Shown: piece by piece, positions 1,552-63,455 of the stretch | Layout: every line of letters starts with the position of its first letter | Position numbering within the stretch: position 1 is the first letter of the stretch | Assembly: GCA_001914405.1 (NCBI GenBank) | Contig: MSDW01000001.1 | Coordinates: 124,001-188,000, forward strand | Direction of reading: 5' to 3' | Source of the DNA: Candidatus Methanohalarchaeum thermophilum | GTDB taxonomy: Archaea > Halobacteriota > Methanonatronarchaeia > Methanonatronarchaeales > Methanonatronarchaeaceae | Length of the DNA stretch: 64,000 nt | Made by a program: the position numbers and the translations under genes | Notes under the pieces: generated by a model | The model's database searches: none | The model's input: only the letters and a program-made list of their open reading frames with translations | What the model was told of the DNA's origin: nothing

Positions 1552-1959
1552 TTTATAGAGTTGGAGGCAGAAAACCCGTGTCCTTCAAGAGCACGGGATG
1601 AATGCCTTCAACAACACTTAAATGATTTTGGAACCAAGTTAAGCTTTGGCAGTTAGGCGTTCTGCCTCATCAAACAAACTCAGGCCACTTCTCTGTCCAT
1701 TGGCCAAAAAAATCCCTTGGTAAGCCCGAAACACTTGGAGTAGGGGTTCTAGTGGTTGGTGTGGAGCAGCCGCTGAGGAATAAGAGGAACCCTCATTGGG
1801 TTGGTATATGGGCTTTGTGCCCTAATCCAGTTCTTCCCTCAAAGCGCAAGTTCCCTTGCTGACTGGGTGTATGAGACAAGCCCAGTAGATAAGGCAGACT
1901 CCAACTTGGATAAGGCCTCACAAGGAAACTCACTCCCTTTAGGAAGTGAGTTACTTCAC
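1552..1959 (+). mobile_element. Family-1 IS200/IS605-like non-coding element, copy A
   Basis: This 408 bp non-coding element begins after a TTTAT motif with GAGTTGGAGGCAG and a left-end hairpin (ACCCGTGTCC/GAGCACGGGA followed by TGAATGCC). It ends in a right-end hairpin (ACTCACTCC/GGAAGTGAGT) followed by TACTTCAC. The core holds the family-1 conserved blocks: GGCAGTT, AAGCCCGAAAC, GTGTGGAGCAGCCG, GAATAAGAGGAACC, TATATGGG and CCTAATCCAGT. One hairpin has stem CTGGG/CCCAG around the loop TGTATGAGACAAG (1863-1885). It is enclosed by GTTCCCTTG (1850-1858) pairing with CAAGGAAAC (1921-1929). The right end is 43 bp upstream of the ACT-domain gene. An open frame across the element is not conserved in other copies and is not counted as a gene. 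Confidence 0.75.
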
Positions 1960-5042: not shown

Positions 5043-5550
5043 ATTATCTTTTGTGGATTTGTAAGAGAGTAGTACAGACCGGTTTCTTTAGGACGGGGAT
5101 ATACGGACTTCTCTTACACAGAATAATTTAACTCCAGCACTTAAATAGTTCTAAGAGGTATTTAGGGTAACTGGCAGTTGGTTGGATTTGTCTGCCCTAT
5201 CAAAAAGCGATTCCACGGCCTTTGAGGTATTCTGGCTAAGTTAAAGGCCCCGAAACTCTACATCGAATAGGTGTATTTGGGTAAACTCGAAAAATCTAGG
5301 AGTAGGGTCGTAGTGGGTGGTGTAGAAGGTACCGCAGGAGAATAAGCAGGAACCATCCTAAAAGTTAGGTTAATATATGGGTTCTTGTATCTGTCCTAAT
5401 CCAATTCTTTTCCCATGGAGCAAATAGTTCCAGGTGTTGATTTAGGTGCATGAGAAAAGCTCCCGGATGGAAAAAAGCAAACTCCAATCCAGATAAGGCT
5501 CACATGGAAGCTCCTTCTTAAGTCTCTGATTTAGGTAGGGGTCACTTCAC
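5043..5550 (+). mobile_element. Family-1 IS200/IS605-like non-coding element, copy B
   Basis: The element starts at the family left-end motif TTATCTTTTGTGG. Its first hairpin is unusual: a long arm TGTAAGAGA...TCTCTTACA (about 5070-5122) replaces the normal short palindrome. The family core follows (ACTCCAGCACTTAAATAG, GGCAGTTGGTTGG, AAAAAGCGATTCC, TATATGGG, CCTAATCCAATTC). It ends with a CTTAAGTCTCTGATTTAGG hairpin and GGTCACTTCAC. The TGCATGAGAAAAG loop is conserved although its stem is weaker than in other copies. No coding potential is seen. Confidence 0.7.
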
Positions 5551-11569: not shown

Positions 11570-11849
11570 CTTTGCTTACAGATAGGTTCCCTATCCTTTC
11601 CACTTCATTGACCTAAGTTAAGGTGTTACAGGTAGAAGTAACTCGAATACCACCTAGACCCCCCTATAAATCCACCAAGACCCCTCCCTCTTTCAAAACG
11701 GTTTCAAGCTTATCCCAAACACATTTCGACATGGGGATCTGAGGCCTTTAACCAGATGCCCTCAAGAAAGCGGGATTGCTTTTAGACATATAGAAGCAAA
11801 ACAAGAGCCAAAAAACCTGTCATTTACCCCTTTACCCTATCAGAATTAC
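11570..11849 (-). mobile_element. Decayed family-1 element next to element J
   Basis: On the minus strand the order AAAAGCAATCCCG, GAGGGCATCTGGTTAAAGGCCTCAGA, ATGTCGAAATGTGT and AAGCTTGAAACCG parallels the family-1 core (compare copy D). A large hairpin from TTCTTAAGAACC-like ends is not preserved, and later core blocks are scrambled. I see no coding sequence in the 11,481-11,849 interval. Confidence 0.45.
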
Positions 11850-12250
11850 GTGACCTCCTCACCTACCTAATCAAAGATCTAAGAAGGTGCTTCCACCTAT
11901 TTGGAGTCCTCCAGGTCCAAGGCTCATAGCTCCCTACCAGGGGGTGTATGCCGAGCACGACTCAGCTCTAGTTAGCAGGTTACAAAAACTTAAACTGTTT
12001 TCCCAGAACATCACCTATATCCATCACTATCATATACCCCGGTCACTGGGACCCCATTCCGAGGTCTTCCACGTACCCCTTTGCGGAAGAACCTAAATAC
12101 CCGAGGAACTCGGCTACTCAAACTCAGCCCATAGGCCTCAGAACCCCTCAACAAAAACCTATTCGATTCCCAAATACAAACATCATAGTACCGATTCACC
12201 CTCCCTACCTAAATCAAAGATCTAGGAAAAGGGATTTCTCATCAAATAAT
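11850..12250 (-). mobile_element. Family-2 IS200/IS605-like non-coding element, copy J
   Basis: About 400 bp, bounded on the minus strand by a left-end hairpin (CCTAGATCTTTGATTTAGG, then GGGTGAATCGG) and a right-end hairpin (CTTAGATCTTTGATTAGG, then GAGGAGGTCAC). The core differs from family 1 but is shared with copy K. Blocks include GGGAATCGAATAGG, GAGGCCTATGGGCTGAGTT, CTCGGGTATTTAGG, TTCTTCCGCAAAGGG, GGAAGAC, CCAGTGACCGGGG and GCTCGGCATACACCCCCTGG. Short open frames across it are not conserved as protein. Confidence 0.65.
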
Positions 12251-12265
12251 ATTAAATTTTACATT

Positions 12266-14274: not shown

Positions 14275-14638
14275 ATCTATAGTAGAGGGAGGGAGGGAAC
14301 CTCACGGCTTGGCGTGAGGGTGAATCCCGTTAAACTTAAATAATTATATTACTAAGTATCTTTTAATTCCAAAGGTGGGCTTTTTGGGGTGCTTTACATG
14401 TTCCACCTTTCAAGAAATCGAGAGGTTGGGAGGGGGTGGCGTCGGGTAGTGTGAAGCTACAGAGAACTTGTAACAGCACCTAGATATGCAGGGTCGATCA
14501 AATTACCCTGCCAACTATGCAGGATGGTTTCGTCCGAAGCGTAGGTTCTCTGCTGACCGGGGTGAATGAGAGAAGCCCTGTGGGAAGGCAGAATTATTCG
14601 CAGAGAACCCCCACAGCTTTGCTGTGAGGTCACTTCAC
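14275..14638 (+). mobile_element. Family-1 IS200/IS605-like element, copy G (GC-richer subfamily)
   Basis: 364 bp. The left end is TCTATAGTAGAGGGAGG with hairpin CCTCACGGC/GCGTGAGG and then GTGAATCCC; the right end is hairpin CCCACAGC/GCTGTGAGG and then TCACTTCAC. The core is diverged from A-F in sequence but keeps the same helices. GGTTCTCTGC (14544-14553) pairs with GCAGAGAACC (14600-14609), enclosing CGGGG/CCCTG around the loop TGAATGAGAGAAG. An inverted sister copy (H) lies at 59.5 kb. The element ends 45 bp before the HAD-protein start. Confidence 0.75.
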
Positions 14639-19253: not shown

Positions 19254-21005
19254 GTGACAGATATCTATGATAAAATAACTGAGATCTCCAAAAGAAGAGG
19301 GTTTTTCTGGCCATCATTTGACATATATGGGTCAGCCTCTGGTTTCTATGACTACGGTCCCCTAGGAACCAAACTAATTAAAAACATAAAGTCAAAATGG
19401 AGAGATTATTACATAAACAAAGAAAGCTTCGATGAGATTATATCCACAACTATTATGTCCGAAGATGTATTCAGGGCATCAGGACATCTTGATGGATTTG
19501 AAGATGCAATGACAGAGTGTAACAATTGTAATAAGTCATTTAGAGCTGATCACTTAGTAGAAGATTTTACAGAAGAACAAGCCGATAGTTTATCCAACCA
19601 AAAAATATACGAATTAATTAAAGAAAATGAAGTTTCCTGCCCTGCATGTGGAGGAGAACTAGGAGAAGTTTATAACTTCAACCTAATGTTTAAAACATCA
19701 ATAGGCCCTGGAACAGGAAGAAACGGTTACTTAAGGCCAGAAACAGCACAAGGAATGTTTGTGGATTTCCCATACCTACAGGACACAAATAGAGGAAAAC
19801 TTCCTTTTGGAGTCGTACAAATCGGAAGAGCTTACAGAAACGAAATATCCCCAAGACAAGGTGTAATAAGATTAAGAGAATTCCTCCAAATGGAAGCCGA
19901 AGTATTTGTAAAACCGGGCGAAAAAAACCATCCTTCCTTTAGTAAAGTAAAAGACGAAAAAGTTAAACTTTATTCCATAGACCAACAGGAAGAAAAAGAA
20001 GGAAAACCTCAAAAGATCAAACTAGAAGAAGCTCTTAAATCAGGATTAATTGGAAGCGAAATCCTAGCTTATTACATTGGGTTAACTAAAAAATTCCTAT
20101 TAGATCTAGGTATTGATCAGAGTAAACTCAGATTCAGACAGCATCTAGACGAAGAAAGAGCTCATTATGCAGAAGATTGCTGGGATGCAGAAGCCAAATC
20201 AGATAGATTTGGTTGGATAGAACTAGCCGGAATCTCAGATAGAACAAACTATGACCTAAAAAAACATGGTAAAAATTCAAATCAAGATCTGAGGGCCTTT
20301 GATAAGTATAAAGAACCCAAAAAGATCGAAAAGAAAGTAATTTCTCCTAATATGGATAAATTAGGCCCTAAGTTCAAAGACAAATCTAAGAAAATTGCCG
20401 AATCATTAAAGGACATAAGACCTGAAAAAATGGAAAAACTTCTAGATAAAGAAAAATTTGAGATAGAAATAGACGGAGAGAAATTTAAATTAGATGACAG
20501 GTATGTTGAAGTGGAAAAAAAGATCGAAAAAAGAAGTGGGGAGAGATTCTATCCTCATGTCATCGAGCCATCTTATGGCTTGGACAGAATAACCTATATC
20601 ACTATTGAACATTCATATGACGAAGATGTTTTAGATGAAGAAAAAAGAAAAGTAATAAGATTCAACAAAATAGTTTCTCCAATTGACGTAGCAGTTTTTC
20701 CTTTAATAGAAGATAAAAAACTATTAAATAAGTCACAAAAAGTAATTGATTCCTTAGATAATGAATTAAATACAGTTTACGATGAATCAGGATCAATAGG
20801 AAGAAGATATCGACGACAAGATGAAATTGGAACACCCTACTGTATAACAATCGATCATCAAACAATTGAAGACAACACCGTAACAATTAGAGAAAGAGAT
20901 TCAACAGACCAAATTAGAGTTAAAATATCCGATATCAACACCACAATAAATAAACTAACTAAAAACAAAGTCAAGTTCAACGAATTGACATCCTCACCTA
21001 CCTAA
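19254..21005 (+). CDS. glyS: Glycyl-tRNA synthetase (alpha2 type)
   Basis: This class II synthetase charges tRNA-Gly. Family features are the N-terminal [14 protein letters not shown] with YDYGPLG, a CNNC...CPAC metal-binding insertion, motif 2 around [22 protein letters not shown] and motif 3 in [13 protein letters not shown]. An anticodon-binding domain completes it. It starts at GTG behind AGGAGG. The last eight residues (NELTSSPT) and the stop codon come from the right end of element K, which has inserted at the gene's 3' end. The anticodon domain itself looks complete. Confidence 0.95.
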
Positions 21006-21404
21006 ATCAGAGATTTAGGGAGGTGCTTCCACCTATTTGGAGTGCTTCTGGTTTCGAGGCTCATAGTTTCTATCAGGGGGTGTATGCCGAGCACGTCTTG
21101 GCTCTAGTTAGCAGGTTCCAAGGACTTAAACTGTTTTCCCAGGACAAGCCCCTATGTCCATCGCTATCATGTGCCCTGGTTACGGGCCCCGGTCCGGTCA
21201 CTGGGACCCCATACCGAGGTCTTCCACATATCCCTTTGCGGAAGAACCTAAATACCCGAGGAATTCGGCTACTCGAACTCAGCCCATAGGCCTCAGAACC
21301 TCTCAACAAAAACCTATTCGATTCCCAAATACAGATATCTAGTGCTGATTCATCCTCCCTACCTAAATCAGAGACTTAGGAAGGGAATTTCTCATCAAAT
21401 AAGT
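20984..21404 (-). mobile_element. Family-2 IS200/IS605-like non-coding element, copy K
   Basis: About 420 bp, closely similar to element J over its whole core. Minus-strand left end: CTTATTTGATGAGAAATTCC, palindrome CTAAGTC/GATTTAGGTAGG, then GAGGATGAATCAGC. The right end is the palindrome CCTAAATCTCTGATTTAGG, then TGAGGATGTCAA, a terminus it shares with the tnpB pseudogene at 45.9 kb. The right end lies inside the last codons of glyS and supplies its stop. Confidence 0.7.
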
Positions 21405-21441
21405 TAAAACATCTATTAAACAAAATAAGGTAACTATTTGG

Positions 21442-30517: not shown

Positions 30518-30973
30518 GTTATATGGTTAAAGGCAGGAAACCTGTGTCCTTTAGGGCACGAGATGAATGCTTTTTTTTGGAAGGAAAATAACACTTAATT
30601 GATTTTAGGAACTAGCTAGAGGTAACTGACAGTTGGTTGGCTTGATTTCCCTATCAAAAAGCGAACCCATGTTTCTTAGGTATCTGGCTAATCGCCCTGT
30701 GACCAACCAACATCGAATAGTTGTATTGGATAAGCCTGAAACTTTTGGAATAAGGAGTGTTGGTTGTGTGGAGCAGCTTGTAGGAATAATAAGGGGAGTT
30801 ATTGCATAGCTAATATATGGACTTTTGTTTTGGCCCTAATCCAAGTCTTCCCAGGGAACTCAAGTTCCCTAGTTGATTGGTTGAACAAGAAAAGCCCAAT
30901 AACAAGTCAAACTCTACTCAGATGAATTTCACAGGAAAGCTCAATTCATTTATTTAGGAGGTGAGTCACTTTA
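30518..30973 (+). mobile_element. Family-1 IS200/IS605-like non-coding element, copy C
   Basis: 456 bp. The left end GTTATATGGTTAAAGGCAGG with hairpin ACCTGTGTCC/GGGCACGAGAT then GAATGC resembles copy A. The core keeps GGTAACTGACAGTTGG, AAAAAGCGA, AAGCCTGAAAC, GTGTGGAGCAGC, TAATATATGG and CCCTAATCC. The diagnostic hairpin here is ATTGG/CCAAT around TTGAACAAGAAAAG (30876-30900). It ends with GAGTCACTTTAC, one base different from the usual terminus. Element L begins about 20 bp further on. Confidence 0.7.
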
Positions 30974-30994
30974 CTCCTGTTGATAACAATTTAA

Positions 30995-31313
30995 TTTATC
31001 TTGGTGGTTAAGAAGACCTCTTCCTTATCTTTTGATTAGGGAGGGGATGAATCAACCTATAAGGCTTAAATGACCTCCGTGTCTTAGGTTTTGTGTGTAG
31101 GGCAGGGGTTGTGGCCGAAGGCTAAAGCCCGTGGACAGATTGAGAGTTCTGGTTACCAAGCTCGCTGGCTTGGGCCAGGGAACCTCCCCATAGAAAGCTT
31201 CCTAGATAAGCGCCGCCCAGGACTGAGATTGGATGACAGCAGTAGGAAGAAAACCCCTTTGACTCTGGAAGCCCCCTCCAAAATCCCTTGATTTTGGTAA
31301 GGGAGGAAGTCAC
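30995..31313 (+). mobile_element. Family-3 IS200/IS605-like element, copy L
   Basis: 319 bp, starting TTTATCTTGGTGGTTAAGAAG with the family left-end hairpin and GATGAATCAACC. It ends with palindrome CAAAATCCCTTGATTTTG and GGGAGGAAGTCAC. The GC-rich core is nearly identical to element M but unrelated in primary sequence to families 1 and 2. A 66-codon open frame (31091-31291) runs in the transposon direction and stops in the right-end hairpin, ending LEAPSKIP. Many tnpB genes end this way, so it may be a tnpB 3' remnant overlapping an omega-RNA. This is suggestive only. Confidence 0.65.
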
Positions 31314-31432
31314 TATTGGAATGCTGTGACTGTGTGGAAGGTTTGTTTTCGTAGGTTGAGGAGTATGTTATTCAGGTTTCTTTCGTTTTAGTGATTTAGA
31401 GGTGTGAGTTACTAGGAGAGGATATGAGTGGT

Positions 31433-47715: not shown

Positions 47716-48189
47716 TTTATCTATTCATTGGAGAAGGCCCTCTTCTTTTCTTTGATAGGTAGGGGATGAATTCGATGTTTTTTAAAATAAAAAACTAATA
47801 TTGTGTTAATGGCAGTTGGTTGGTTTGTCTGCCTCTTGAACAAAAAGCAATCCCATGCCCTTAAGGCAATGGCTAAATCCTCAGACTCTACATCGAATAG
47901 GTGTATTAGGTAAGTAAGTAAGTATTGGGATAGGTGGGTAAGCCCGAAACAGCTTGGGAGTAGGGAGTCTAGTGGTAGGTGTGGAGCAACCATTGAGAAA
48001 TAAGAGGAGCCATTGTGTAGCTAATATATGGCGTAGTTGCCTAATCCAGTTCTTCCTCAAAGCAATAGTTCCCTGTTGATCAAGTGTATGAGAGAAGCTT
48101 GGTGAAAAACAAACTCCATTCAGGATAAGGTCACAGGGAAGCCCTCTTCCTCACCGAACGGATGTGAGGTTAGGCAGGGGTCACTTCAC
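47716..48189 (+). mobile_element. Family-1 IS200/IS605-like non-coding element, copy D
   Basis: 474 bp, nearly identical (a handful of differences) to copy E 3.4 kb away, which fixes the boundaries. Upstream identity stops at TTTATCTATTCATTGG, and downstream it stops after GGTCACTTCAC. The core has all conserved blocks. CAAG/CTTG pairs around TGTATGAGAGAAG (48081-48101), inside TTCCCTGT (48069-48076) paired with ACAGGGAA (48133-48140). The right-end hairpin is CCTCACC/GTGAGG with loop GAACGGAT. An IS5-type element follows 33 bp later. Confidence 0.8.
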
Positions 48190-51108: not shown

Positions 51109-51580
51109 TTTATCTATTCATTGGAGAAGGCCCTCTTCTTTTCTTTGATAGGTAGGGGATGAATTCGATGTTTTTTAAAATAAAAAACTAATATTGTGTT
51201 AATGGCAGTTGGTTGGTTTGTCTGCCTCTTGAACAAAAAGCAATCCCATGCCCTTAAGGCAATGGCTAAAGCCTCAGACTCTACATCGAGAGGTGTATAG
51301 GTAAGTAAGTAAGTATTGGGATAGGTGGGTAAGCCCGAAACAGCTTGGGAGTAGGGAGTCTAGTGATAGGTGTGGAGCAACCATTGAGAAATAAGAGGAG
51401 CCATTGTGTAGCTAATATATGGCGTAGTTGCCTAATCCAGTTCTTCCTCAAAGCAATAGTTCCCTGTTGATCAAGTGTATGAGAGAAGCTTGGTGAAAAA
51501 CAAACTCCATTCAGGATAAGGTCACAGGGAAGCCCTCTTCCTCACCGAACGGATGTGAGGTTAGGCAGGGGTCACTTCAC
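51109..51580 (+). mobile_element. Family-1 IS200/IS605-like non-coding element, copy E
   Basis: 472 bp, the near-identical sister of copy D in direct orientation. The same left end (TTTATCTATTCATTGGAG), core helices and right end (CCTCACC/GTGAGG hairpin then GGTCACTTCAC) are present. Differences include loss of a few bases around CATCGA(ATA)GGTGTA. The right terminus overlaps the 3' end of thiDN: the gene's TGA stop is the complement of TCA within TTCAC, so the element defines where that protein ends. Confidence 0.8.
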
Positions 51581-52887
51581 AATATGTTGATTAATTTTTT
51601 TATTTTTTTAATTATTTCTATTGGTGAGGAGCCAAATACTCTTATCATGGGTTCTTTTCCTATTCCGCCTTTATCGTATATTAAGTCAGGTTTTTTATCG
51701 GAACCGGATAGAGCTTCTTCTACTCCGTATGTCATTGTGTTGTTTTTAGGTACTTTTTCTCGATCAAATTTTTTGATATTAAGTTTTAGTTCTTTACATG
51801 CAGATAGGATCTCTTTACTATATTTTATGTTCAAGCAGCTTTTAATCTGGTTGTAGTAGCTGTTTGCGGCTAATATTAGTCTACTGATATGGCTTGAGGC
51901 ACCAAATTTTGGGCAACCAACTATTTCAAATTCATCTGATGTAGAAACTATTCTTCCAGGTACTGCAACTATGTCTTTAGGGGTTTTTGGGTTTTCGATG
52001 GCTACTCCGAAGTTTGAACCTACCTCGGGTACCAGGGGCGAGAAATCTAGATTCTCTAGTTCCTTTAGAGAGGATGTTAGTTCTTGGAGAGCACTATATC
52101 TTTCTTTTTGTTCTCTTAATGTGTAAATTGAATTGACGGGATAATTTCCTTTCCCTAATTGATGAGAGTTTTTTATTGATTCTTCGGTGAGTTTTTTGGC
52201 TTTATCTATTGCAGTTTCTAGTGTTAGGCCCTTAGCTAGGTATCCTGCTATTGCTGATGAAAATGTACAACCCGATCCATGTGTTTTTTTATCGAATTTT
52301 TTTCCTTGGTATTTTTTTATCCCGTTTTTATTGATTAAAAAATCGTTTCCGTTTAAGTTTCCACCGGTTATTACTACATTCTGGGCTCCTAGGTTAAGGA
52401 TCCTTTTTCCAGCTTTATGTACATCTTCCTCGTTTTTGATTTCAATGCTGGATAGTGATTCTGCTTCACTTTTATTTGGAGTTAATACGTCTACTTTTTT
52501 AATTAAATTTTTTTTTATTTCTTCTACAGTTTTTTCTTCAATTAAACTGTATCCGGATTCTGCTATCATAACTGGGTCTAGTACTGTAGGTTTATTTATT
52601 TCTTCTATAGTCTTTGAAACGGCTAGGGCGTTTTCTTTTGTATGTAACATACCTATTTTTATTGATTTTATATCGAAATCGTTTAAGTTGGATTTTATTT
52701 GGTTTTTAACGGTTTCATTAGGTATATTATATATTTCGTCTAATGAATAGGTATTTTGTGCAGTTATGGCAGTAATAACGGTGCATCCGTACACTCCGGT
52801 GGCTTCAAATGCTTTGAGGTCTGCTTGAATACCTGCTCCTGCACTGGAGTCTGATCCAGCTATGGACATGGCTACTCTTTCTTTCAT
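51577..52887 (-). CDS. thiDN: Bifunctional HMP-phosphate kinase / thiamine-phosphate synthase (ThiD-ThiN)
   Basis: The 436-residue fusion phosphorylates hydroxymethylpyrimidine (ThiD) and joins it to the thiazole phosphate (ThiN, the archaeal thiamine-phosphate synthase). ThiD features are SIAGSDSSAGAGIQADLKAFEA, VLDPVMIAESGYSL, LTPNKSEAESLS and GSGCTFSSAIAGYLAKG. The ThiN part (about 265-436) has PEVGSNFGVAIENPKTPKDIVAVPGRI and DLIYDKGGIGKEPMIRVFG. The stop codon is contributed by element E. The start ATG at 52887 lacks a clear ribosome binding site; ATG 52869 is an alternative. Confidence 0.92.
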   Translation of the reverse strand: MKERVAMSIAGSDSSAGAGIQADLKAFEATGVYGCTVITAITAQNTYSLDEIYNIPNETVKNQIKSNLNDFDIKSIKIGMLHTKENALAVSKTIEEINKPTVLDPVMIAESGYSLIEEKTVEEIKKNLIKKVDVLTPNKSEAESLSSIEIKNEEDVHKAGKRILNLGAQNVVITGGNLNGNDFLINKNGIKKYQGKKFDKKTHGSGCTFSSAIAGYLAKGLTLETAIDKAKKLTEESIKNSHQLGKGNYPVNSIYTLREQKERYSALQELTSSLKELENLDFSPLVPEVGSNFGVAIENPKTPKDIVAVPGRIVSTSDEFEIVGCPKFGASSHISRLILAANSYYNQIKSCLNIKYSKEILSACKELKLNIKKFDREKVPKNNTMTYGVEEALSGSDKKPDLIYDKGGIGKEPMIRVFGSSPIEIIKKIKKLINIL

Positions 52888-55555: not shown

Positions 55556-55763
55556 AACACCATTCTACTTAAATAACTAAAAAATAGAAAACCTCTCTTT
55601 AGATCCCTCTTATATCTTATTAAATCGACGAATTTGTTCTATTTAATAAAATAATTGCTTCATAGACTAGTTCCAGAGTCTTTGAAGTTAAGTATTTACT
55701 TGAATAGATTACGTTGTATCTTAGTTAAACCAATTCTCTCTTGGTGATTTCGTGGTCAAATGG

Positions 55764-56087
55764 GTGGCTTCCTCCCTTACCAAAATCAAGGGATTTTGGA
55801 GGGGGCTTCCAGAGTCAAAGGGGTTTTCTTCCTACTGCTGTCATCCAATCTCAGTCCTGGGCGGCGCTTATCTAGGAAGCTTTCTATGGGGAGGTTCCCT
55901 GGCCCAAGCCAGCGAGCTTGGTAACCAGAATTCTCAATCTGTCCACGGGCTTTTGGCTTCGGCCACAAACCCTGCCTAGCTTACACCAAAACCTAAGACA
56001 CGGAGGTCATTTAAGCCTTATAGGTTGATTCATCTCGCTACCAAAATCAAGAGATTAGGAGGGGGTCTTCTCAACCACCAAGATAAA
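55764..56087 (-). mobile_element. Family-3 IS200/IS605-like element, copy M
   Basis: 324 bp, inverted and nearly identical to element L at 31 kb. The minus-strand left end is TTTATCTTGGTGGTTGAG with palindrome CTAATCTCTTGATTTTGG and GATGAATCAACC. The right end is CAAAATCCCTTGATTTTG then GGGAGGAAGCCAC. The open frame seen in L is also present here (ending LEAPSKIP) with two early substitutions. The preceding 55,556-55,763 stretch is AT-rich with nothing identifiable. Confidence 0.65.
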
Positions 56088-56122
56088 AATTTAATGGTTT
56101 TGCAAATCATTTAAATGTTAAT

Positions 56123-58158: not shown

Positions 58159-58607
58159 GTGAAGTGAGCTCCACCTAAATCAAAGATTAGGAGTTCTCTG
58201 TGGCCCTTATCTCGGGTGAGAGTTTGCTTTATTCGTTGAGCTTGTCTCATTCACTCAATCAACAGGGAACTATTGCTCTGAGTGAAGATTGGATTAGGGC
58301 AAAAACAGAACCAATGTATTAACTCTTAGGGTGGTTCCGCTTATTCTTCTCTTGTAACTCCATGCTACCACTAGCCCCTACTTCAGAGCTGTTTCGGACT
58401 TACATCATACATTTTATTCGATATTAGAGTCTGAGGCTTCAGCCAGTTCTCTCAAAAATAATGAGATTGCTTTTTGTTGAGTCAGACTCCCAATCAACTG
58501 CCAATTAAATTCTAATTGTTATTGAAAATCACTTAACTATTGTGGTTGATTCATCATCCTATCTAATCAGAGACTTAGGAGGAGCTCTTCTCAACCTAAA
58601 ATATAAA
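58159..58607 (-). mobile_element. Family-1 IS200/IS605-like non-coding element, copy I
   Basis: 449 bp on the minus strand. The left end is TTTATATTTTAGGTTGAGAAG with palindrome CCTAAGTCTCTGATTAGATAGG and GATGAATCAACC; the right end is palindrome CCTAATCTTTGATTTAGG then CTCACTTCAC. The core hairpin is TTGAG/CTCAA around TGAATGAGACAAG (58236-58258), enclosed by GTTCCCTGT pairing with ACAGAGAAC. The same block order as in A-F is clear on the reverse strand (GGCAGTTGATTGG, AAGTCCGAAAC, GTAGTATGGAG-like, CCCTAATCCAATC). Confidence 0.75.
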
Positions 58608-59479: not shown

Positions 59480-59843
59480 GTGAAGTGACCCCATAGCAAG
59501 CTGTGGGGTTTCTCTGCGGGCGATTCTGCCTTCCCATTGGGCTTCCTCATTCACCCCGGTCAGCAGGGAACTTACGCTTCGGACGGAACCATCCTGCATA
59601 GGTGGTAGGTTAGTTTTGGTTGCCCCTGCATATCTAGGGGCTGTTATAGATCCTCTGTAGCTTCACACTACTCGACGCCACCTCATCTCAACCTAACGGT
59701 TTCTTGAGAGGTGGAACATGTAAAGCACCCCAAAAAGGGTCACTTTTGGAATTAAAAGATACTTAGTAGTAGTATTATTTAAGTCTAACGGAATTCACCC
59801 CCACAGCAAGCCGTGAGGTTCTCTCCCTCACTCTACTATAGAT
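59480..59843 (-). mobile_element. Family-1 IS200/IS605-like element, copy H (sister of G)
   Basis: 364 bp, the same subfamily as copy G but in opposite orientation. The minus-strand left end is TCTATAGTAGAGTGAGGGAG with hairpin CTCACGGC/GCTGTGGG and GTGAATTCC; the right end is hairpin CCCACAGC/GCTATGGGG and then TCACTTCAC. The core keeps the CGGGG...CCC hairpin around a slightly shortened TGAATGAGGAAG loop. At its left end it joins the tnpB start relic, so it has landed in or replaced the body of a tnpB element. Confidence 0.75.
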
Positions 59844-62997: not shown

Positions 62998-63414
62998 TTT
63001 ATCTAAATGGTTGGGAAGACTCCTTTCTAAATCTGTGGTTTAGGTAGGTGATGAATCAGCTGTAACACTTTACTTAGCTCCAGTATTAACTAGGGGTAAT
63101 GGGCAGTTGGTTGGGGGTCTGCCTTGAACAAAAAGCGATCCTATCTATAAAAATCTCTGGGTAAGCCTGAAACGGTTCTGGAGTAGGGGGGTCTAGCGGT
63201 AGGTGTGGAGCAACCGAAAGTGAATAAGAGGAACCATCTAGGGTTAGTATATGGGAACTGTTCCCTAAGTCCAGACTTCACTTGGAGCAATAGTTCCCTG
63301 TTGACGGTGTGGATGAGACAAGCACCGTGGAAAACAAACTCCTCTTTGGATAAGGTCACAGGGAAGCCCTCTTCCTCACCGAACGGATGTGAGGTTAGGC
63401 AGGGGTCACTTCAC
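62998..63414 (+). mobile_element. Family-1 IS200/IS605-like non-coding element, copy F
   Basis: 417 bp and the cleanest single copy. Left end: TTTATCTAAATGGTTGGGAAG, palindrome CTAAATCTGTGGTTTAGG, TGATGAATCAGC. The core follows with ACTCCAG-like TAGCTCCAG, GGGCAGTTGGTTGG, AAAAAGCGATCC, AAGCCTGAAAC, GTGTGGAGCAACCG, GAATAAGAGGAACC and TATATGGG. The right end is CCTCACC/GTGAGG, then GGTCACTTCAC, 41 bp before the ABC-2 permease stop. Confidence 0.8.
63095..63414 (+). ncRNA. Candidate structured RNA core of family-1 elements (best copy)
   Basis: Core helices in this copy: TTCCCTGT (63294-63301) pairs with ACAGGGAA (63358-63365). Inside, CGGTG/CACCG closes the loop TGGATGAGACAAG (63305-63327). The terminal hairpin is CCTCACC/GTGAGG. 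In other copies both strands of these stems change together while the loop stays TGNATGAGANAAG, which is evidence of selection on RNA structure. Whether it is transcribed is unknown. Confidence 0.55.
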
Positions 63415-63455
63415 GGTTTCTATGTTATGCTGGGGTTTTTGAGGAAAGAGATTGT

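Follow-up and report, generated by a model that had tools for sequence, protein, structure and literature searches.

We found that family-1, a set of non-coding repeats in Candidatus Methanohalarchaeum thermophilum (2.14 Mb, four contigs), is probably a gene-less, PATE-like IS200/IS605 element whose omega-RNA is used by a TnpB acting in trans and which is moved by TnpA. Omega-RNA is commonly regarded as a product of the tnpB message that serves the protein of its own element. If about 150 gene-less copies are selected for guide-RNA structure, this would mean that TnpB serves them or is parasitised by them, and family-1 would offer a ready-made test of the trans use of omega-RNA.

The window, i.e., the whole stretch of 64,000 nucleotides analysed here (C1:124001-188000), holds nine family-1 copies, all comparable and lying where a sequence-only reading had placed them. 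We aligned 29 full elements (alignment A1), and a covariance model of the 176-nt core (R1) recovered exactly these nine copies, at 1752, 5317, 14443, 30759, 47972, 51363 and 63196 on the + strand and at 58191 and 59507 on the - strand. All nine are intergenic relative to recognised genes. Element E reaches the last four bases of the ORF at 51577-52887, the only ORF overlapping element F is a mechanical one of 106 aa, and no family-1 copy has an intact ORF of its own coupled to the RNA.

Table 1. Family-1 copies in the window and anatomy of element F (positions of the window).
Feature	Positions	Strand	Remarks
Element A	1557-1959	+	TTTAT at 1552-1556
Element B	5048-5550	+	TTAT at 5044-5047; divergent subfamily with longer left end
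Element G	14281-14638	+	Divergent subfamily; R1 43.5 bits
Element C	30523-30974	+	R1 match
Element D	47721-48189	+	Left end 90% identical over 77 nt (from TTTAT) to tnpB locus L204
Element E	51114-51580	+	99% identical to D
Element I	58159-58602	-	R1 match
Element H	59480-59837	-	Divergent subfamily; weakest R1 match, 30.9 bits
TTTAT, left flank of F	62998-63002	+	Target pentanucleotide, predicted TAM
Element F, 412 bp, non-coding, IS200/605-type	63003-63414	+	Alignment A1, model R1
Left end of F: hairpin, then GATGAAT	63003-63059	+	blastn to left ends of tnpB loci
5' domain hairpin, GGCAG...CTGCC	63102-63123	+	Alignment A1; not found in TnpB-encoded omega-RNA
Omega-RNA core	63160-63283	+	Homologous to tnpB 3' end (codons GKPETSGVGSSG...RIRKP in parent)
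Core hairpin 1, GGT...ACC	63198-63215	+	GGTTG/CAACC in other copies; GGCGT/ACGCC and GGCGG/CCGCC in tnpB
Core stem 2, AAGTGAA (63218-63224)/TTCACTT (63277-63283)	63218-63283	+	Covarying helix
Extra 3' domain, enclosing helix TTCCCTGT (63294-63301)/ACAGGGAA (63358-63365)	63294-63365	+	Paired in the structure counted on 104 copies; absent from the TnpB omega-RNAs examined
Hairpin of the sequence-only reading, CGGTG - TGGATGAGACAAG - CACCG	63305-63327	+	5/5 pairs double-changed
Right end: hairpin + TCACTTCAC (63406-63414)	63366-63414	+	Alignment A1
Predicted guide, 16 nt of flanking DNA 3' of the right end	63415-63430	+	By analogy to ISDra2 TnpB reRNA (PMC8612924)

Genome-wide, R1 gave at least 146 matches at E<0.001, a count that is a lower bound. 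Six further copies are present in the sister genus (Archaeon SCG-AAA382B04), while R1 found none in the 392 other genomes of the phylum (394 in all). A pattern scan of public genomes gave real matches only in SCG-AAA382B04, with four other matches at chance score or unscored, and the viral contigs searched contained no family-1 copies. In some regions of C1, the copies show a strand bias (9 plus and 1 minus at 200-300 kb; 6 plus and 0 minus at 900-1000 kb), possibly linked to replication direction as expected of single-strand transposition.

The sequence-only reading had described a hairpin with a constant loop and a stem that changes on both sides. The loop TGNATGAGANAAG is exact in seven copies (A, B, D, E, F, G and I), while in H one base of it is missing (TGAATGAGGAAG) and C has several differences (TTGAACAAGAAAAG). 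The pattern TGNATGAGANAAGC occurs 27 times in the genome compared to 0 for the same pattern read backwards. The stem pairs quoted earlier for A, C, D, F, G and I are correct, and the enclosing helix is part of the structure counted on 104 distinct copies; the enclosing pair given for A (GTTCCCTTG/CAAGGAAAC) has one mismatch.

Overall, the compensatory changes proposed by that reading are borne out, with covariation of pairs well above both shuffled and slid controls. Among 15 hand-picked copies 92.4% of cells are paired and the covariation score is 0.218, compared to 0.03-0.07 for slid versions. Among the 104 distinct copies the corresponding values are 88.4% (34-53% in slid controls) and 0.314 (0.04-0.08); 23 of 29 pairs are double-changed, and there are 321 double-changed cells compared to 113 ± 15 in shuffles. 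The most strongly covarying helix is the hairpin noted earlier, with 4/5 pairs double-changed among the 15 copies and 5/5 among the 104. In an alignment-free count over 85 copies, core stem 2 scores above every one of 300 shuffles. The folding energy of element F is not unusual (z = +0.80) and lends no support.

Among 40 tnpB loci of this genome whose 3' ends we compared with family-1, one clade, ending in ...GKPETSGVGSSGVVDTPRRIRKP..., has DNA (GGTAAGCCTGAAACTTCGGGAGTAGGGTCCAGTGG...GAATAAGG in locus L203) close to the family-1 core. R1 matched the tnpB 3' ends of 8/8 loci of this clade (E 1e-6 to 5e-3) and 0/32 other loci; outside this genome it matched the TnpB of the sister genus (E 7.5e-8) and gave a weak match to one archaeal relative (E 0.01). 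Independently of any model, blastn joined family-1 to the same tnpB loci at both the left end and the core. The left end of F, from TTTAT onward, matches L210 (82% over 62 nt), L209 (79%) and L203 (75%), and the left end of the L026 element matches tnpB locus L206 (92% over 61 nt). The core of F matches L203 at 1936-2032 (72.6% over 106 nt, E 1.4e-9), that of L040 matches L208 (78% over 78 nt), and core matches to the clade as a whole are 73-78% over about 80-106 nt, with E down to 6e-13. The proposed IS200/IS605 derivation is thereby upheld, in that ends and core are tied to a tnpB clade of the same genome. With both matches falling on one set of tnpB loci, family-1 is best read as an internally deleted tnpB element.

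We asked whether the shared core also shares its structure, using a combined alignment of 16 family-1 cores with ten tnpB 3' ends, seven of them from this family and three from other archaea. In this alignment 86.7% of cells are paired (35-52% in slid versions), the same helices being formed by different pairs, and 52 cells are double-changed compared to 21 ± 4 in shuffles; the two measures based on numbers of pairs or of types separate less clearly, 41/500 and 440/500 shuffles reaching them. Core stem 2 has 5/7 pairs double-changed, its variants being GAGTGAA/TTCACTC in other family-1 copies and AGGAGAA/TTCTCCT and GTGAGGA/TCCTCAC in tnpB. Because the core overlies the 3' end of tnpB, which is the site of omega-RNA production, the omega-RNA idea is supported. 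The + strand of family-1 is the sense strand of tnpB, as an omega-RNA requires.

The sequence-only reading had left the choice between an omega-RNA-like and a new transposon RNA, and our data indicate that each suggestion fits a different part of the molecule. While the core is homologous to the tnpB 3' end, the noted hairpin and its enclosing helix form an extra 3' domain that is not found in the TnpB-encoded omega-RNAs examined. That reading had named an exact match to a known RNA family or to coding sequence as evidence against it. Rfam gave no match, whereas the middle of the RNA does match coding DNA, namely the tnpB 3' end, and a coding match at this site is what an omega-RNA predicts.

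The extra 3' domain comprises about 80 nt between core and right end, with the enclosing helix and the TGNATGAGANAAG hairpin, and when R1 is placed on tnpB RNAs most positions of this domain are deleted. A model of this domain alone (R2) found nothing significant beside 49 tnpB loci. Across 394 genomes R2 gave three matches outside the family, at about chance level (E 0.003-0.009) and with no TnpB motif adjoining. Nor was a counterpart seen in the parent tnpB for the 5' part, which has hairpins of its own, GGCAG/CTGCC among them. These comparisons support the assignment of the hairpin and enclosing helix to what would be an enlarged, stand-alone omega-RNA. Since this 3' domain, so well conserved in family-1, is missing from TnpB-encoded omega-RNAs, family-1 RNA could have some other cognate protein. 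Its partner might even be a protein of a different kind, for which the added 5' and 3' domains would be the binding site and the tnpB core merely ancestral; conservation of the 3' domain in two genera, beside none of the 49 tnpB loci and, apart from chance-level matches, in no other genus, would be consistent with this. We regard it as quite improbable, given that on the 104 distinct copies conservation of the tnpB-like core equals that of the added domains, as one would not expect of a useless remnant.

A use in trans by TnpB remains our preferred reading, and the insertion pattern agrees with an IS200/605-type element. Among 76 copies the left flank is TTTAT in 52 and TTAT in 11 (63/76 together), and the elements end in TTCAC. 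One copy (C1:414229-414697) lies inside tnpA, and its joined flanks (TTTAT|AAATGC) give a continuous frame, LKTNMVGFINALKGATSR. Since joining the flanks restores the tnpA frame, insertion took place 3' of TTTAT without target duplication. Locus L103, considered as a tnpA-tnpB-core unit, was ruled out as such: it is a family-1 copy that has received a tnpAB element at TTAC.

PATEs are non-coding IS605 derivatives, one of which, HqIRS71, contains C-terminal coding sequence (PMC3119063). Like the PATEs of Haloquadratum walsbyi, family-1 has near-terminal palindromes, high copy number and no target duplication (PMC3119063); it is too short for a transposase, and its ends are related to IS605-type transposons (at most 92% identity to left ends of tnpB loci). 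It differs in its covariation and added RNA domains, and the portion of the source at hand does not describe PATEs as guide-RNA carriers (PMC3119063). In Halanaerobium, a PATE-like sequence of 271 nt has been described that retains the final 58 nt of tnpB (PMC7290912). We found no PATE family with a covarying, domain-enlarged omega-RNA at such copy number in the open literature searched. Family-1 suggests that haloarchaeal PATEs merit re-reading as possible guide-RNA carriers.

In ISDra2, the RNA bound by TnpB extends over the tnpB 3' end and the right end and takes in roughly 16 nt of flank, while the TAM is identical to the target of the transposase (PMC8612924). Family-1 is alike in that its RNA would cover the tnpB 3' end and right end, with a flank guide and a TAM identical to the target being predicted; it is unlike ISDra2 in that the gene is absent and the RNA, with extra 5' and 3' domains, would be about 300 nt. 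Element F has the corresponding layout of core, right-end hairpin, TTCAC and flank. A TATA-like signal about 33 nt before the GGCAG hairpin is weakly enriched among 74 copies, and is a hint, no more, of an own promoter.

We hypothesize that the two ends of a tnpB transposon gave rise to family-1, with left end, omega-RNA-encoding tnpB 3' end and right end kept, the protein gene lost and structured domains gained on both sides of the omega-RNA core. Transcription would proceed from the + strand, and the RNA would continue past the right end, taking in some 16 nt of flank as its guide, which in copy F would begin at 63415. A TnpB encoded elsewhere would bind this RNA and be directed to TTTAT followed by the guide. 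The likely target would be the empty donor site after excision, where cutting would lead to the element being restored by repair, while a Y1 transposase (TnpA) encoded elsewhere would move family-1. Expression, TnpB binding and guided cutting of the family-1 RNA are what we infer from sequence. More tentatively, the enlarged stand-alone omega-RNA might itself be the selected unit, with about 150 RNAs and their different guides using few TnpBs in trans and lineage-specific domains adapting the RNA to gene-less life; we offer this as a possibility that we would not favour as yet.

The helices might instead be kept for single-stranded-DNA movement, with a folded top strand that aids TnpA recognition or circle formation and RNA function unneeded. 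We also counted wobble pairs as a test of strand. At paired positions, the 41 best-preserved copies have 46 G-U and 15 A-C, although the model itself supplied the ranking of copies, so that the test has some circularity; two more decayed copy groups have about equal numbers (72:73 and 67:62), and all copies together give a weak strand signal (G-U 174, A-C 135). This pattern fits + strand selection in young copies followed by decay, although G-T wobble in DNA would equally yield a G-U excess. IS200/605 elements do transpose as single strands (PMC8612924), and hairpins stand at the left and right ends of family-1. The core helices, however, lie far from the ends and in the same register as the RNA-encoding tnpB 3' end. 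Moreover, because PATEs of 52 bp with terminal sequences only appear mobile (PMC3119063), internal folding is not needed for movement, and we consider the DNA explanation unlikely.

IS200/605 material abounds in the genome, with 89 matches to the TnpB zinc-ribbon domain, 24 to Y1 transposase (of which many are broken) and remains of iscB with HEARO RNA. The one intact gene of the parent clade (C2:143846-145183; L203, 747-2084) encodes a 445-aa TnpB with Pfam OrfB_IS605 and TNB and NCBIfam guided_TnpB domains. In RuvC-II (near residue 296) this protein and L216, the relative closest to it, carry GDGKGWK in place of the GELK of more distant relatives, and their zinc ribbon is degenerate, with cysteines largely missing. 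Since Asp stands where relatives have the RuvC-II Glu, the L203 TnpB, the likely partner of family-1 RNA, may, judging from these residues, bind without cutting. The RNA could then guide a non-cutting, TldR-like TnpB that blocks transcription or occupies sites, as opposed to a homing nuclease. We reasoned that this is improbable, since Asp may substitute for Glu, or Glu may be supplied from elsewhere, the two other RuvC Asp (D204 and D383) are kept, and besides the parent candidate the genome has more than 20 TnpB-like frames of at least 300 aa.

Two other identities of the family-1 RNA were rejected. The IscB omega-RNA (HEARO, RF02033) is, as we suppose for family-1, an IS200/605 guide RNA, and accompanies degraded iscB genes in this genome, but it lies 5' of iscB, unlike family-1; RF02033 matches lie at other places of the genome and not in family-1, and a search of F and D gave none with E up to 10. 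A group I intron or IStron, suggested by a motif resemblance in D, has no Rfam support, and the window copies lie between genes. No other Rfam family matched at gathering score.

The window also contains two stand-alone structured elements of another family, family-2, at 30995-31330 (+) and 55756-56088 (-). Family-2 has the same left-end type as family-1 and a 3' end for which blastn gives a match just 3' of another tnpB, L008 (E 2e-4), and differs in its RNA, its right end (AAGTCAC) and its L008-type parent TnpB. Given this 3' match, family-2 appears to be an orphan omega-RNA that stems from another TnpB clade.

Degraded iscB genes are found at C2:305500-308300 (L052), C2:121400-123800 (L053) and C1:95200-97300 (L054), two of them with an upstream HEARO RNA (40-42 bits, below the Rfam cut-off), and a HEARO-like match without iscB lies at C1:289715-290003. 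The iscB genes are interrupted by non-coding repeats of other types whose palindromic ends are similar (L053 at 1180-1600; L052 at 1490-1920), and the repeats recur in the window at 11843-12256 and 21005-21409; these look like further gene-less element families.
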